From Cellvibrio sp. UBA7671 (GTDB lineage: Bacteria; Pseudomonadota; Gammaproteobacteria; Pseudomonadales; Cellvibrionaceae): DNA of 64,000 nt. Positions 13,745-51,783 of this stretch are shown piece by piece. A model generated the notes under the pieces. It was given only the letters and a program-made list of their open reading frames with translations, made no database searches and was not told the DNA's origin. Where the stretch lies: contig DLHJ01000015.1 in assembly GCA_002483145.1 (NCBI GenBank), positions 1-64,000 of the forward strand, in the 5' to 3' direction. Each line of letters begins with the position of its first letter. Position 1 is the first letter of the stretch. A program made the translations under genes and the position numbers.

Positions 13745-14137
13745 ATGCGTCATAAATTAACTGGTCGTCAATTAGGCCGTAATGCTTCTCACCGTAAAGC
13801 TATGTTTCGCAACATGGTTATTTCTTTGGTTGAGCATGAATTGATTAAAACTACTTTGCCAAAAGCAAAAGAGCTGCGCCGTTTTGCAGAGCCTTTGATT
13901 ACCTTGGCTAAGGTAGACAGCGTTGCTAACCGTCGTTTGGCATTCGCACGTTTGAACAACAAAGAAGCTGTAGGTAAGTTGTTCAGCCAGCTCGGCCCAC
14001 GTTATAACACTCGTCCAGGTGGCTACGTTCGCATTTTGAAATGTGGTTTTCGCTCTGGTGATAAAGCGCCAATGGCTTATGTTGAGTTGGTTGAGCGCCC
14101 AGCTAAAGCTCTTGAAGCTGCTGTAGACGCTGAATAA
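13745..14137 (+). CDS. rplQ: 50S ribosomal protein L17
   Basis: L17 lies near the tunnel exit. The 130-residue product starts [20 protein letters not shown] and has the [26 protein letters not shown] end typical of gammaproteobacteria. GAAGGA precedes the ATG. It is the last gene of the superoperon and is separated from rpoA by 138 bases that include a terminator-like hairpin. Confidence 0.97.
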
Positions 14138-14155
14138 GTTTTTACCGGTTCCAAC

Positions 14156-14188
14156 AAAAAGGCCAAGCAGAGATGCTTGGCCTTTTTG
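14156..14188 (+). terminator. Terminator after rplQ
   Basis: A 14-bp stem (AAAAAGGCCAAGCA with TGCTTGGCCTTTTT) closes a GAGA tetraloop and ends in T residues. It closes the ribosomal superoperon. Confidence 0.9.
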
Positions 14189-14334
14189 CTTTTTCGGCTA
14201 AAGGTCCTAAATGATTTCTTAGTTGCCTGAAGCTATCTTTGTGTCTATTGGTAAATGTTTTTACGTTGATGTCTATGGTCAATGTCGCACAAGACTTTCA
14301 GCAATTGCCGACTTTTTTGCGGGCGGTAAATCGC

Positions 14335-14340
14335 TAAAAT
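14335..14340 (+). promoter_or_regulatory. Probable -10 box of the GGA-rich small RNA
   Basis: TAAAAT at 14335-14340 would place the transcript start near 14347, just before the first GGA. The -35 region (about 14312-14318) is a T-run with a poor match, as expected of an activated promoter. An imperfect palindrome GTAAA-4-TTTAC lies at 14251-14264, but its spacing does not fit the known GacA site (TGTAAG-6-CTTACA). Confidence 0.4.
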
Positions 14341-14344
14341 AGCA

Positions 14345-14519
14345 GTCACAGGGATGCTAATCAGGACAGGATGTGTTGGTTAGAGGATTAAGTTTTAGGA
14401 TGAGACTTTTCTAGGGAAGTGAAGACAGCGAGGCAGGATGCCGTCCGATCATGATGATCGGTTTGCCCACGCAGGAAGCAATGGGGCTTGCAGGAAGCAA
14501 AGCCCCTATTTTTCTTTTT
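14345..14519 (+). ncRNA. Candidate CsrB/RsmZ-type small RNA (CsrA sponge)
   Basis: Between the rplQ terminator and uvrA there are nine GGA triplets in about 145 bases (14352, 14364, 14369, 14385, 14398, 14415, 14436, 14474, 14493). Several sit in hairpin loops. AAGTTT/AGACTT (14390-14408) closes a loop containing AGGAT. GGC/GCC (14432-14442) closes AGGAT. CTAATC/GGTTAG (14357-14383) closes a loop with two GGAs. GGGGCTTGC/GCAA(A)GCCCC closes AGGAA. The last hairpin also forms the terminator. This is the hallmark of CsrB, RsmY and RsmZ RNAs, which sequester CsrA/RsmA under GacS-GacA control. There is no long reading frame. Function is inferred from structure only. Confidence 0.65.
14483..14519 (+). 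terminator. Intrinsic terminator of the small RNA
   Basis: GGGGCTTGC (14483-14491), loop AGGAA, then GCAA-A-GCCCC (14497-14506) is followed by TATTTTTCTTTTT. The T-tract lies on the + strand side only. The element therefore serves a + strand transcript rather than uvrA, which ends seven bases later on the - strand. Confidence 0.8.
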
Positions 14520-14525
14520 GATGCG

Positions 14526-17390
14526 CTAGGCTTTTGTTGCCTTGCTTGGTTTTGACTTCCTATTAGTTACCCTGAGCATTGGAGCAAGGAATCGTCCAGT
14601 GTGTGAATTTGCCAGTTGGGCGATATCTTCCGGTGTTCCCGTCGCAATAATTTGACCTCCGCCACTGCCGCCTTCCGGCCCTAAATCCACTACCCAGTCT
14701 GCCGTTTTAATCACGTCCAGGTTATGTTCGATTACCACTACTGTATTGCCGTGATCGCGCAGGCGATGTAGTACATTGAGTAATTGTTGGATGTCGTAAA
14801 AATGCAAACCAGTGGTGGGCTCATCCAAAATATAAAGTGTTTTGCCTGTGTCGCGCTTGGATAGTTCTTTCGCCAGTTTTACCCGCTGTGCTTCGCCGCC
14901 CGACAATGTTGTTGCTGATTGCCCTAAGCAAATATATGAAAGCCCCACATCGATCAATGTTTGCAATTTATTGGCAATGGCGGGTACTGCATCAAAAAAA
15001 GCTCGCGCATCTTCGATAGTCATGCCCAGCACTTCGTTGATATTTTTGCCTTTGTACTTCACATCCAGTGTTTCGCGGTTGTAGCGTTTGCCTTTGCAAA
15101 CATCACAGGGCACATAGACATCAGGCAGGAAATGCATTTCTACTTTGGTGACCCCGTCGCCTTGGCAGGCTTCGCAACGGCCGCCTTTTACGTTAAAGCT
15201 GAAGCGACCCGGTTGGTATCCTCGAGAACGAGATTCCTGGGTGCCTGCAAACAACTCGCGGATGGGCGTAAAGATGCCGGTGTATGTGGCGGGGTTGGAG
15301 CGCGGTGTGCGGCCGATGGGACTTTGGTCAATATCCACACACTTATCAAATAAATCCATGCCTTCGATCGAGTCGTAGGGTGCTGGTGTTAGTGTTGAAG
15401 CACCGTTAAGTGCTGTGGCCGCCAAGGGATGAAGGGTTGCATTGATGAGCGTGGATTTGCCCGACCCGGATACACCAGTCACGCAAGTCATTAGTCCCAC
15501 AGGAATTTCCAGCGTCACATTCTGCAGGTTATTACCTTTGGCACCGACGAGCCGCAGAACCTGCTTTTTATCAAAAGGATTACGCTTGGTGGGGATAGCG
15601 ATAGATTTGGTGCCGCTCAGGTACTGTCCGGTGATCGAGTCTTTATTCGCCATAATGGCTTTGACATTGCCTTGCGCGATAACCTGCCCGCCGTGCACAC
15701 CAGCTCCTGGGCCAATATCAATCACATGGTCGGCCTGGCGAATTGCATCTTCATCATGCTCAACCACAATCACGGTATTACCGATATCGCGCAGATGGGT
15801 GAGAGTCTTTAAGAGTCGTTCATTGTCACGCTGATGCAGTCCAATTGACGGCTCATCGAGGATGTACATTACCCCAACCAAGCCGGCGCCGATTTGGCTG
15901 GCGAGGCGAATACGCTGGGCTTCTCCGCCAGAAAGAGTTTCAGCACTGCGGTTGAGCGTCAGATAGTTCAGGCCGACATCCACCAAAAAGCGGAAGCGGT
16001 CGCGTAGTTCTTTGAGGATCTTATCGGCGATGCCAGCTTTGCGGCCAGTAAACGCCAGCTTCATATAGTAGTCGTAGGCATCGGCGACCGGCATTTCAGT
16101 AATCTTGGGCAGTGGGCGCTCGTCGATAAACACATTGCGAGCTTCAATCCGCAGGCGCGTGCCCTCACATTCTGGGCAGGGCTGGCTGGATAAAAATTTG
16201 GTCAGGTCTTCGCGTACCGAGTTGGACTCAGTATCGCGATAGCGGCGCTCCATATTGGTCAGTACGCCTTCAAAACTGTGGCTGCGTTTGTACACATCGC
16301 CACGATCATTGATGTAATTAAATTCAATAATTTCTTCGCCCGATCCGTAGAGCACAGCATCGCGCTGTTTGGCTTTGAGTTTTGCCCAGGGCGTATTCAC
16401 ATCAAACGCATAGTGTTTGGCGAGCGAGGCGAGCATATGGAAGTAGTAGACGTTCCGTTTGTCCCAGCCGCGAATCGCACCTTCAGAAAGGCTCAGCGCC
16501 GTGTCCTGAATTACTTTGTCTTCATCAAAAAATTGATGTACGCCCAATCCGTCGCAAGTCGGGCAAGCGCCGGCGGGGTTGTTAAAGGAGAAAAGGCGCG
16601 GTTCGAGTTCGGTCAGGCTGTAATCGCAAATAGGGCAAGCGTGTTTGGATGAAAACAAACGGTCAGGTGCTTCGCCATCCATGTAATTAATACAGGCGAT
16701 ACCTTCCGATAAATTCAGCGCTGTCTCGAACGATTCAGATAAGCGAAGCTTCAAATCTTCACGCACTTTAAAGCGATCGATGACCACTTCAACGGTGTGT
16801 TTCTTTTTCTTATCGAGCTTGGGTGTGTCATCCAGATCGCAGAGAATGCCGTCGATGCGAGCGCGGATAAAACCGTCTCGCTTGAGTTGTTCAAATATAT
16901 GTAGATGCTCACCTTTGCGGTCGCGAATCACCGGCGCCAGCAGCATTAACTTAGTGCCTTCAGGCAATGCCAATGTTGTGTCCACCATCTCGCTAATAGT
17001 TTGTGCGGTCAGAGGAGCGCCGTGCTCCGGGCAACGCGCTTCGCCCACGCGTGCGTAGAGCAGGCGCAAGTAATCATAGATTTCGGTGATGGTGCCCACG
17101 GTGGAGCGAGGGTTGTGCGATGTGGATTTTTGTTCGATGGAAATCGCCGGGCTCAAGCCTTCAACGTGATCGACATCGGGCTTTTCCATCATCGACAAAA
17201 ACTGGCGTGCGTAAGTGGAAAGGGATTCCACATAGCGGCGCTGGCCTTCAGCGTAGAGCGTATCAAACGCTAGTGATGACTTGCCTGAACCAGACGGTCC
17301 GGTGATGACTACAAGCTTGTCGCGCGGGATATCGAGATCAATATTTTTGAGATTGTGGGTGCGTGCACCCCTAACAATAATTTTGTCCAT
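14526..17390 (-). CDS. uvrA: Excinuclease ABC subunit A
   Basis: UvrA recognises bulky DNA lesions in nucleotide excision repair and loads UvrB. The 954-residue product from ATG 17390 starts [21 protein letters not shown]; an in-frame TTG at 17399 is less likely. Two ABC ATPase modules are present: Walker [10 protein letters not shown] near residue 31 and GVSGSGKST in the second half, each with an LSGGEAQR signature. Zinc-binding CPIC..CPTC and CEAC..CDVC pairs are intact. It is transcribed away from the neighbouring MFS gene. No clear LexA box was seen in the intergenic region. Confidence 0.97.
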
Positions 17391-17623
17391 GTACTGCAAT
17401 CCGCCAAGGCATTCAAAACGAGCGATTATACGTGAATAGATTGCCAGCAGATGTCAGTAGGGCGTCAATCTTCTGTAAGTCTTGGTAAATGGATTTAATG
17501 CAATCTTGCGCAGGATTTATAGGTTGCGAGGCGGACTAGTTGGTACACTGGCGCCCTTTGAATAATTGATGTCTTAATCGCTGACTTCTATTGACTGCTG
17601 ACACCTATCGACGGCCATTCGCC

Positions 17624-48792: not shown

Positions 48793-51783
48793 ATGAAAAC
48801 ATTTAACGTAAAGCCTCTGGCCCTGGTGATATCCAGCCTCGCCGTGGCAGGTATTTCACCCGCGCTGCTGGCGCAAGAGCAGACCAAACCGGAGATCGAA
48901 GTGGAAGAGGTGATGGTCACCGGCTACGCCCGTTCGATCCAGAACAGTCTGGATACCAAACGCAACGCCGACACCGTAGTGCAGGCTATCTCCGCTGCTG
49001 ATCTGGGTGGTCTCCCGGATGTATCGATCGCCGATGCGCTCGGCCGGGTGCCCGGTATTACGGTAACTCGCTCCGGCGGACAAGCGGGCACCATTCAGGT
49101 TCGCGGCATGGGTGAAGGCTTTGTCTTTTCTACCCTCAATGGCCGCGAGCAGGTATCGCCCAACGGTACCCGCGCCATGGAGTTCAGCCAGTTCCCCTCG
49201 GAGTTGATCCAGTCGGTAGAAGTGTATATGTCACCCAAAGCATCGCTGATTGAAGGTGGTGTGGCAGGTACAGTGGAATTGAAAACGGCTAACCCGCTGG
49301 AGATGACCGAAGACCAGAAATTTGTGGTCGGCGTGCGCGGCAGTTTTAACGATCAGGCGAGTGATATTTACGGCGCCGAGCCTTATGGTTCACGGCTGTC
49401 GCTTTCGTTCCAGAAAAAGCTGCTGGACGGCACCCTCGGTGTGGCACTGGGTTACGCCAAGCTCGTACAGCCGCGTGCAGCCGCCCGCTTTGAGCACTAC
49501 AACTACGAAACCGCCCCCTTCGATCTAATGAGCGAGGACGGTCTGAACACCCAGGTGGTGGATGAAAACTTCACTCCCCAACCAGTGGCGGAGCGTCCAT
49601 CCAGTGTGCAGATCAGCAACGGTTTTGAACTGCTGCAGACGGGCGGTGAGGAGACCCGCGATGGCTATGTGGCTGCCGTCCAGTTTGAGCCTAATGAAAA
49701 CCTGACGATCAAGTCCGACCTGTTTTACTCCGAGTTCACCTCCGACAGTTATTCGCGCGGCTTCCGTATTCAGCCGCTGCGCAGTGCCGATGTCAGCAGT
49801 GTTGTGCTGTGGAACAACCAGGCCGTAGTTGGCGGTGAATTCAAGATGGCCGACGACAACGCCGATGCTTTCGATTTTCACGTAGTCAGCAACGATGTGA
49901 CCCAAACCAACGAGCTGCTCTCCGGCGGCTTGAATGTACAGTGGAAGCAAGATGCCTGGACCATCGCCGGTGACCTGTCGCGCTCCGACGCCTCGGGTGT
50001 GCAGGCAGATGGCGTAGTGCGTGCGCATCTCTACCGCGCCAAAGAAGATCCGGCACCGGGTTTTGACCCCTACGAGCGCGATCCCGACCAATCCATGGCC
50101 TATCTGCTGGACGGTATCAATCTTCCTACCGTAAGCCTGAGCCGTGATTACGCTGCCTACGACGCCAACGGTGTCAGTAACCTGCGCTTGAGCCGCTACG
50201 AGCGCTATCCGCGCATCAACGACGATCTGATTGACGCCGCGCGTCTGGATTTGAAATACGAGTTTGACGACCTGTTTATAAGCTCCCTAGAGGCGGGTGT
50301 AAGGGCATCCGAGCGCAACCATACAGACCGCCGTCAAGTGTTCGTTTACGGTGATGGCGCCAACAACACGATCACGTCGGACTGGTCCCTGCCTATCACA
50401 GTCGATACTTCCGATGTGGTGAACTGGAAGGGCGATTTCTCCCGTTTCCCATCCTTCCTGGCGATTGATGGCGACGAAATTATGCGCTCTGCGCACAACG
50501 TCGGTTTGGTGCTGGGGCCAGTGCCTGAGGCCACCATAGAAAACCCCAATCCGCAGGCCGTACCTCGTTCAATTGAGCCAGCCGCGCGCTGGGGCGAAGG
50601 GCGTGATTGGTCGATGAAGCAGAGTTCCAATATCGACGAAAACATCACCTCTTATTATTTGCAGGCCAATCTTTCTACCAGCCTGTTGGGGCGTGACCTC
50701 ACCGGTAATATCGGTGTGCGCCACGTAGAGACTGACCAATCGAGCATCGCATTGGTCAATGTGAATGGAGATGTTGAGCGCGGTGCGACTGAAATTTGCG
50801 ATGAGCTGGGCGATTGTCGCAGCAACTTCGCCTACCAAAAACTCGGCGCCAAATACAGCGACACCCTGCCATCGCTAAACCTGAACTTCGCCCTGACCGA
50901 CGAAGACCAGCTGCGTTTGGCTCTGGCGCGTGTGTTGTCGCGCCCGCCCATCAACCGCTTGGCGGCTCCGGATTCCGAAGGCACCATCACCACTGGCTCG
51001 GATAATGTCCCGCGCTTTAACTACGGCTCCAACACCTCTCCCTACCTGACACCGTTTATTGCAGATCAGGTTGATCTCTCCTACGAGCATTACATGGAAG
51101 AGACCAACGGTGCCTTTGTGATTGCCGGTTATCACCGCGACATCAAATCCTTTATTCAGGACGTGACCTTCGAGCAGTTTGATTTCCGCGCAGCCGGCTT
51201 TGATATTCCCGATAGCGCAGAGATTTTGGTCGGAGGCGTACCAACGGAAGTAGAGGTGGAGAACGGTACCTATTCCACTTCTATCAACAATCAGGAAGGC
51301 GGATTTATTCGCGGGATTGAAGTCTCCTACACCCAGACGTTCAACTTCCTGCCGGATTTGTGGTCAGGCTTGGGGGTGAGCACCAGCTACTCCTGGACGG
51401 ACAGCGAGATCAGTGTGGTCAATCCGGTCGAGGCGGGCATAACCGCGGATGCAGCACTGCCATTCCCTGGATTAGTAGAGAACTCGGCTAACTTCACCGT
51501 TTTCTACAGCTACGGTGGTTTTGAAACGCGCCTGTCTACCACCTTCCAGGATTCGTTTGTCGGCGAGACACGCAACATCAACTTGCAACCGATCATCTAT
51601 GCACCGGAAACGCTGCTGGATTATCAAGCTGCCTACAAGTTCGATAACGGTTTGGACCTGGTGTTCTCCATCAGCAACCTCACCAACGAACCCAATAGAA
51701 GTTATATGTTTGATGAAGAGTTAACTCGCACCTTGCAGTGGTTTGGCCGCACTTACTACCTGGGGGCTAACTACTCGTTTTAA
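48793..51783 (+). CDS. TonB-dependent outer-membrane receptor, alpha-glucan uptake (second)
   Basis: A 996-residue receptor with a signal peptide (cleavage after LLA-Q near residue 25) and a TonB box-like VEEVMVTGYA. The plug has VSIADALGRVPGITVTR and IQVRGMGEGFVFSTLNGREQ, and the barrel ends RTYYLGANYSF. It is the same class as the first receptor but clearly diverged. It lies 94 bases after pullulanase with no terminator between, so the products of surface pullulanase are the likely cargo. Like pullulanase it is GC-richer than the genes before it. Confidence 0.88.
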   Translation: MKTFNVKPLALVISSLAVAGISPALLAQEQTKPEIEVEEVMVTGYARSIQNSLDTKRNADTVVQAISAADLGGLPDVSIADALGRVPGITVTRSGGQAGTIQVRGMGEGFVFSTLNGREQVSPNGTRAMEFSQFPSELIQSVEVYMSPKASLIEGGVAGTVELKTANPLEMTEDQKFVVGVRGSFNDQASDIYGAEPYGSRLSLSFQKKLLDGTLGVALGYAKLVQPRAAARFEHYNYETAPFDLMSEDGLNTQVVDENFTPQPVAERPSSVQISNGFELLQTGGEETRDGYVAAVQFEPNENLTIKSDLFYSEFTSDSYSRGFRIQPLRSADVSSVVLWNNQAVVGGEFKMADDNADAFDFHVVSNDVTQTNELLSGGLNVQWKQDAWTIAGDLSRSDASGVQADGVVRAHLYRAKEDPAPGFDPYERDPDQSMAYLLDGINLPTVSLSRDYAAYDANGVSNLRLSRYERYPRINDDLIDAARLDLKYEFDDLFISSLEAGVRASERNHTDRRQVFVYGDGANNTITSDWSLPITVDTSDVVNWKGDFSRFPSFLAIDGDEIMRSAHNVGLVLGPVPEATIENPNPQAVPRSIEPAARWGEGRDWSMKQSSNIDENITSYYLQANLSTSLLGRDLTGNIGVRHVETDQSSIALVNVNGDVERGATEICDELGDCRSNFAYQKLGAKYSDTLPSLNLNFALTDEDQLRLALARVLSRPPINRLAAPDSEGTITTGSDNVPRFNYGSNTSPYLTPFIADQVDLSYEHYMEETNGAFVIAGYHRDIKSFIQDVTFEQFDFRAAGFDIPDSAEILVGGVPTEVEVENGTYSTSINNQEGGFIRGIEVSYTQTFNFLPDLWSGLGVSTSYSWTDSEISVVNPVEAGITADAALPFPGLVENSANFTVFYSYGGFETRLSTTFQDSFVGETRNINLQPIIYAPETLLDYQAAYKFDNGLDLVFSISNLTNEPNRSYMFDEELTRTLQWFGRTYYLGANYSF

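Follow-up and report, generated by a model that had tools for sequence, protein, structure and literature searches.

A very probable new CsrB/Rsm-type small RNA between rplQ and uvrA in Cellvibrio, with relatives at IS66-type ends

The DNA analysed here is a stretch of 64,000 nucleotides from Cellvibrio sp. UBA7671, referred to below as the window. It contains two convergent genes, which we take to be rplQ (ribosomal protein L17) and uvrA, and the intergenic region between them holds a GGA-rich stretch. The features of this locus are as follows.

13745–14137, + strand: rplQ (ribosomal protein L17), upstream neighbour on the same strand as the RNA, from its open reading frame
14155–14188, + strand: terminator of the rplQ operon, between rplQ and the RNA, from a terminator scanner
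14274–14291, + strand: upstream element TATGGTCAATGTCGCACA, a putative GacA-box variant centred at about −64 from the predicted start, with near-constant spacing across copies
14335–14340, + strand: predicted −10 box TAAAAT, at a conserved position in the aligned copies
14345–14519, + strand: putative CsrB/Rsm-type small RNA with nine GGA (seven AGGA), from conservation, folding and motif counts
14526–17399, − strand: uvrA, converging downstream neighbour, from its open reading frame and homologues in relatives

The predicted RNA is about 172 nt long, with a start placed at about 14346. Its nine GGA motifs (at 14352, 14364, 14369, 14385, 14398, 14415, 14436, 14474 and 14493) span 144 nt, which bears out the count of nine in about 145 bases given in an initial annotation of this DNA. 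Seven of the nine are AGGA, whereas shuffles average 2.0. When the 175 nt are shuffled with dinucleotides preserved, at least nine GGA arise in 45 of 1000 shuffles and at least seven AGGA in none of 1000; mononucleotide shuffles reach at least nine GGA in 4 of 1000. A scan of both strands of the window in steps of five finds one other place with nine GGA in 175 nt, near 51230 on the + strand, and it lies within a 996-aa open reading frame. The bare GGA count is thus moderately unusual for the composition, and the AGGA count and the placement in loops are the strong parts. No open reading frame of at least 40 aa overlaps 14345–14519, in agreement with the initial reading of the stretch as noncoding. 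The same reading had given rplQ a terminator of its own at 14156–14188, which the scanner also finds, one base longer. The second terminator that it described was missed by the scanner, but the stem folds stably and is conserved, with a T-rich tail.

The gene rplQ is present in 142 of 144 genomes of the family and in 20 of the 21 genomes of the genus. At nine of these 20 same-genus loci the RNA occupies the rplQ–uvrA gap; at a tenth (G031) the contig breaks off within it, leaving 67 of the 172 model positions. In the nine complete gaps, GGA loops and terminator are conserved, as the initial annotation had anticipated for a genuine RNA. At the other ten loci the RNA is absent from the rplQ site: the rplQ–uvrA gap is short in five (G014, G016, G017, G020 and G021), and other sequence lies downstream of rplQ in five (G024, G025, G026, G028 and G033), with uvrA following after 1.1 kb in G025. 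The RNA is found in front of leuA in G026 (L082), G028 (L091) and G033 (L080), and in G024 (L081) it precedes the gene found after leuA in G026 and G033, with no leuA in between. A second, near-identical copy (L083) is present on another contig of G026. Counting matches above 45 bits, the RNA family occurs in 14 of the 21 same-genus genomes.

The structural elements of the RNA, all on the + strand, were compared across 19 copies.

14361–14379, + strand: hairpin 1, loop AGGAT; loop GGA in 19 of 19 copies, both-sided changes in 4 of 6 pairs
14391–14407, + strand: hairpin 2, loop AGGAT; loop GGA in 16 of 19 copies, both-sided changes in 5 of 6 pairs
14432–14442, + strand: hairpin 3, GGC-AGGAT-GCC; near-invariant stem, loop GGA in 13 of 19 copies
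14446–14461, + strand: hairpin 4; both-sided changes in 4 of 6 pairs
14471–14479, + strand: mini-hairpin GC-AGGAA-GC; weak alone (−0.7 kcal/mol), GGA in 19 of 19 copies
14483–14507, + strand: intrinsic terminator stem with apical AGGAA and a T-rich tail to 14519; −15 kcal/mol, conserved, loop GGA in 17 of 19 copies

The at least four AGGA hairpin loops proposed at the outset are recovered, with AGGA apical in hairpins 1, 2 and 3 and in the mini-hairpin, which has a 2-bp stem; the terminator loop reads AGGAA as described. The number of GGA motifs per copy ranges from 7 to 11. The loop of hairpin 4 carries GGA in 0 of 9 rplQ copies versus 9 of 10 other copies, and the rplQ branch is therefore without one site that the others have kept. 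Although the AGGA hairpins and the terminator stem fold, the RNA as a whole folds barely better than its shuffles (z −1.63, equalled by 11 of 200), and not all of the AGGA hairpins are present in its minimum-energy form; the structural evidence is accordingly comparative. The 19 copies were aligned by sequence alone and then folded, which avoids an alignment fitted to the structure. Of 32 predicted pairs, 15 have changes on both sides. With the structure fixed, 92.8% of cells are paired (shuffled mean 87.0) and 46 cells show a both-sided change (shuffled mean 17.1). None of 500 shuffles reached any of five structure measures, and six controls with a slid structure paired at 28–48%; these controls ignore the relatedness of the copies, and the structure itself was derived from the same 19-copy alignment. 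Two covariance models were used in searches, R1 built from the nine rplQ copies and R2 from 22 copies. Alignment A4 holds 22 of the 34 R1 matches, after removal of six below 30 bits, four truncated and two duplicate matches, and alignment A5 is A4 without L082, L071 and L069.

The 18-bp upstream element is common to copies in four contexts: at rplQ, in the leuA region, at IS66-type ends and beside a further RNA linked to cpoB, both described below. All four types of copy have a block resembling TCAAT(T/G)TCnyACA about 64 bp before the predicted start, followed closer to the start by a second block like GCGACTnTT (by eye) and a TAAAAT-like −10 box. The element reads TGTAGTCAATTTCCTACA in the cpoB-linked copies and in some of the IS type; this form has a full dyad TGTAG...CTACA and matches the published GacA box in length and arrangement, with letters changed. 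That box is given as TGTAAG-N6-CTTACA in passages of PMC4950607 and PMC4353343, and PMC4950607 places the GacA sites of rsmY and rsmZ at −75 and −196. In rplQ copies the counterparts end in CTCACA or CGCACA, and the dyad of the window copy is largely eroded (TATGG...CGCACA for TGTAG...CCTACA). The core of the element, TCAATNTCNYACA, occurs once in the 64 kb versus 0.10 expected, for a pattern picked after the site was known. A promoter scanner reported no sigma-70-type promoter for the RNA. An inverted repeat at 14251–14264, GTAAA-N4-TTTAC, was also considered as a GacA site and was dropped, as it is not kept in relatives.

Proteins that could act on such an RNA are encoded in the same genome. 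A GacA/UvrY homologue is 51% identical to E. coli UvrY and is followed by uvrC as in E. coli; its score of 274.9 bits is just under the NCBIfam cut-off of 280. Two CsrA proteins score above the NCBIfam cut-off. A third, divergent CsrA-like protein (L035, G000:C9:1511–1663, − strand) reaches 36.2 bits, above the Pfam cut-off of 27 and below that of NCBIfam.

One explanation to be weighed is that the stretch is a structured 3′ UTR of the rplQ operon, or a barrier to transcription between convergent rplQ and uvrA, and that its GGA motifs are incidental. Its position between convergent genes and the terminator stem at its end would suit such a role. However, the rplQ operon already ends in a terminator some 160 bp ahead of the GGA-rich stretch, the GGA loops are kept while the stems covary, and the same RNA and element recur before leuA and at IS66-type ends, where rplQ is not adjoining. 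A UTR or barrier is very unlikely.

Comparison with the Rfam models of Csr and Rsm RNAs, proposed as a check in the initial annotation, gave a divided answer. Among all 4227 Rfam families searched over 901 bases, CsrB (RF00018) has the best E-value, with an end-to-end match of 21.5 bits (E 8.7e-4), but the gathering cut-off of 71 bits is not reached, and nothing in the whole window reaches the cut-off of any Rfam family. E. coli CsrB, run as a control with the same tool, scores 380.4 bits. The model PrrB_RsmZ (RF00166, gathering cut-off 44 bits) has no match in the genome at E 0.001 and matches two relatives below the cut-off, at 22.6 and 21.9 bits. In nine same-genus loci that contain the rplQ RNA, whole or in part, CsrB matches one and PrrB_RsmZ two at E 0.5, all under the cut-offs, and one of five further copies has a CsrB match at E 0.1. 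RF00195 is, beside RF00166 and RF02144, one of the RsmY, RsmZ and RsmX families of Pseudomonas. A 33.3-bit rsmX match in L017, which overlaps the rplQ terminator and the end of the gene, was regarded as a chance hit. In the opposite direction, model R2 matches E. coli CsrB in two neighbouring blocks, at 18.6–18.7 bits. Among R2 matches in other families of the order, eight were read by eye and six of these have a GacA-box-like dyad, or the form seen in the window, upstream. A second R2 match in the same genome (G000:C11, 16.7 bits) appears by eye to be a tRNA end with a terminator and was dropped. In another family of the order, L118 (G150:C77) holds a very AGGA-rich RNA with TGGTCAATGTCTCACAA upstream, nearly the same element as in the window; this RNA scores 53.7 bits with Rfam CsrB, below the cut-off.

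In design, the rplQ RNA resembles CsrB (RF00018, E. coli csrB) in its repeated AGGA hairpin loops, the GGA in its terminator loop and its stand-alone intergenic gene. However, it is about half as long (172 versus 369 nt in E. coli), with nine GGA and different neighbours. It resembles RsmX, RsmY and RsmZ of Pseudomonas in size class, number of GGA, a putative GacA-type element upstream and the presence of several such RNAs per genome; the RsmY and RsmZ of P. fluorescens SS101 have eight GGA each, according to a passage of PMC4353343. Unlike in Pseudomonas, the element here is TGTAG...CTACA or weaker rather than TGTAAG...CTTACA, and the neighbours of the rplQ RNA are unlike those named in the portion of PMC4353343 that bears on this. 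The RNA most likely works as CsrB and Rsm RNAs do, yet by their cut-offs it falls outside the Rfam CsrB and RsmZ families.

Weak model matches in seven genomes share a neighbourhood with two genes that, from the look of their proteins, are presumably pal and cpoB, and these matches led to a second, longer candidate.

G000:C2:66495–66871 (L109 1996–2372), − strand: cpoB-linked CsrB-like RNA, 377 nt, 24 GGA, 13 AGGA; TGTAGTCAATTTCCTACA upstream; convergent with cpoB

Some of the six R1 matches below 30 bits that were left out of A4 later proved to be this RNA. In nine further same-genus genomes that were checked, the element is followed by 14–24 GGA within the next 60–460 nt. A search of 61 family genomes recovered cpoB in 59. 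Thirty cpoB loci were read. On the strand that faces cpoB, at least 12 GGA per 300 nt, a line chosen after the values were known, are reached in nine of them, namely three of the four same-genus loci and six of the 26 from outside the genus; on the opposite strand of the 30 loci the count never exceeds 11. Rfam gives no match at E 0.1 for the copy in this genome or in seven loci that hold the RNA. Like the rplQ RNA, with which it shares a genome and the upstream element, the cpoB-linked RNA is GGA-rich and ends in a terminator; it differs in length, in GGA number and in occurring outside the genus. The rplQ RNA is consequently one of at least two sponge candidates of this lineage, whereas the initial annotation had suggested that it might be the only one. 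The cpoB-linked RNA, given its presence outside the genus, may be the older of the two.

In all likelihood, the stretch at 14345–14519 on the + strand is a free-standing CsrB/Rsm-type RNA gene that a GacA-type regulator would activate and whose AGGA loops would capture CsrA, in parallel to the cpoB-linked RNA. This interpretation is supported by the conservation, the covariation of GGA hairpins, the GacA-box-like element, the terminator kept across copies and the CsrA and GacA homologues that the genome encodes, and the same evidence supports the separate + strand transcript of the CsrA-sponge type proposed initially. The features of the class that are seen are GGA and AGGA in hairpin loops, a stand-alone gene with an intrinsic terminator and a predicted start, and CsrA together with a GacA/UvrY homologue in one genome. 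Transcription, GacA control and CsrA binding are steps predicted from sequence. In the proposed mechanism, a GacA-type response regulator would turn on transcription by binding the 18-bp element some 64 bp before the start, and the resulting RNA of about 172 nt would display five AGGA hairpin loops and further GGA sites. These would capture dimers of CsrA, for which there are two clear csrA genes, and thereby free the mRNA targets of CsrA. The 377-nt RNA adjoining cpoB, under the same upstream element, may act in parallel.

Additional copies of the RNA were found with models R1 and R2, numbering 14 in five genomes (four in G018, two in G027, one in G029, six in G031 and one in G032). The upstream end was read in 11 copies, and every one of the 11 carries GTAAGCG or GTAAACG 104–145 nt before the RNA; the remaining three comprise two with the same sequences in another genome and one copy cut by a contig end. 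The sequence outside this end differs each time among the ten copies with flank. IS66 ends begin with GTAAGCG, and IS66 duplicates 8 bp of its target. The copies are as follows.

L070, L071, L073, L074, L075, L078 and L079 (G029, G031 and G032): RNA inside IS66-type ends
L066–L069 (G018): RNA inside IS66-type ends

Pfam models identify TnpC next to the RNA in four loci (L070, L071, L078 and L079) and TnpB in two of them, L070 and L079. A search with one TnpC as query gave 23 matches in 6 of the 21 genomes and none in the genome of the window, and the RNA is present in the fetched flank of 6 of the 23. Of the 17 matches without the RNA, 13 were viewed at the right end, and in all 13 the tnpC stop codon abuts a CG(C/T)TTAC end; the IS66-type ends used in this analysis were read from such RNA-less elements. 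In the elements that bear the RNA, tnpC is thus separated from the end by an additional segment that comprises promoter, RNA and terminator. The TnpC proteins of the two RNA-carrying groups are about 34% identical.

It may be that the Cellvibrio sponge RNA is a passenger of IS66-type elements, a tentative reading to which we give slightly less than an even chance. Promoter, GacA-type element, RNA and terminator would then travel as one block, each insertion would add a GacA-controlled dose of sponge, and the rplQ copy would represent a chromosomal branch; a transposon would in this way rewire the Csr network of its host by RNA alone. What keeps the estimate below even is that no intact TnpC gene was seen among the six that adjoin the RNA. 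Their frames are 63–268 aa (split, deleted or cut by a contig end), and those of most RNA-less copies in G014 are 522–530 aa. The TnpC search found no TnpC beside the RNA copies of G018 and G027. L070 is the sole RNA-bearing copy for which both ends were read; its tnpC is internally deleted, and an 8-bp target-site duplication is absent there, with differing flanks. No relatives of one IS66-type copy were found in plasmid records. By eye, the RNA of L073 is itself apparently cut by another IS66-type end. In G014, 13 TnpC matches (L159, L164, L167, L170 and L172–L180) represent an IS66 burst without the RNA, and the cpoB-linked RNA is the only CsrB-like RNA found in that genome.

These close relatives at IS66-type ends also raise the question of whether the rplQ copy is a decayed, nonfunctional piece of a mobile element left behind by such copies, and this is very unlikely. 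The rplQ copies, by eye, lack a GTAAGCG-type end at the corresponding distance and any transposase remnant in the gap, and they are conserved and covarying. A tree built from 22 copies puts nine of the ten labelled IS or island into one group (92/98, under the tool's star), from which the rplQ and leuA-region copies are separate; the tenth, L071, is placed with those copies instead, although a single IS clade is compatible with the data (p-AU 0.22). Finally, a base-pairing (Hfq-type) small RNA that uses AGGA loops for mRNA pairing rather than for CsrA would also have an intrinsic terminator with a T-rich tail, but this is most improbable given the excess of AGGA over the shuffle mean, the placement of five AGGA in loops and the upstream element shared with the 24-GGA RNA.

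The rplQ RNA is thus very probably an unannotated and new CsrB/Rsm-type small RNA, and the greatest novelty lies in the branch associated with transposons. Searches of the literature on Cellvibrio together with CsrB or with CsrA found no report of a Csr RNA in this genus; nothing was found linking CsrB with IS66, and no transposon-borne Csr RNA was among the matches listed in the broader literature. Cellvibrio is known for polysaccharide degradation, and the rplQ and cpoB-linked RNAs supply it with candidate CsrA antagonists, of a kind that Rfam cut-offs miss here. CsrA homologues (RsmQ and CsrT) are carried on plasmids, phages and ICEs, according to passages of PMC7366521 and PMC9928087. The elements described here are similar in that mobile DNA holds parts of the Csr system; however, the RsmQ and CsrT elements carry the protein, whereas the extra copies carry an RNA that would oppose CsrA. 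Provided that the IS66-type copies are functional, the opposing RNA would be spread by mobile elements as well as CsrA proteins, and sponge dosage could shift by transposition.

Two of the genomes with extra copies, G018 and G027, are about 84% identical around rplQ, yet share near-identical stretches that hold RNA copies (L066/L076 and L069/L077; L101–L104). Identity in these stretches is 98.8–100% over about 12.8 kb compared and 99.96–99.995% over about 23 kb compared. Contamination was tested as a source of the identical copies. One tract falls to 83.5% identity within the same contig, a drop that speaks for recombination and looks recent. The other tract runs for 19 kb at 99.995% to the edge of the compared region, and parts further off are without a match.
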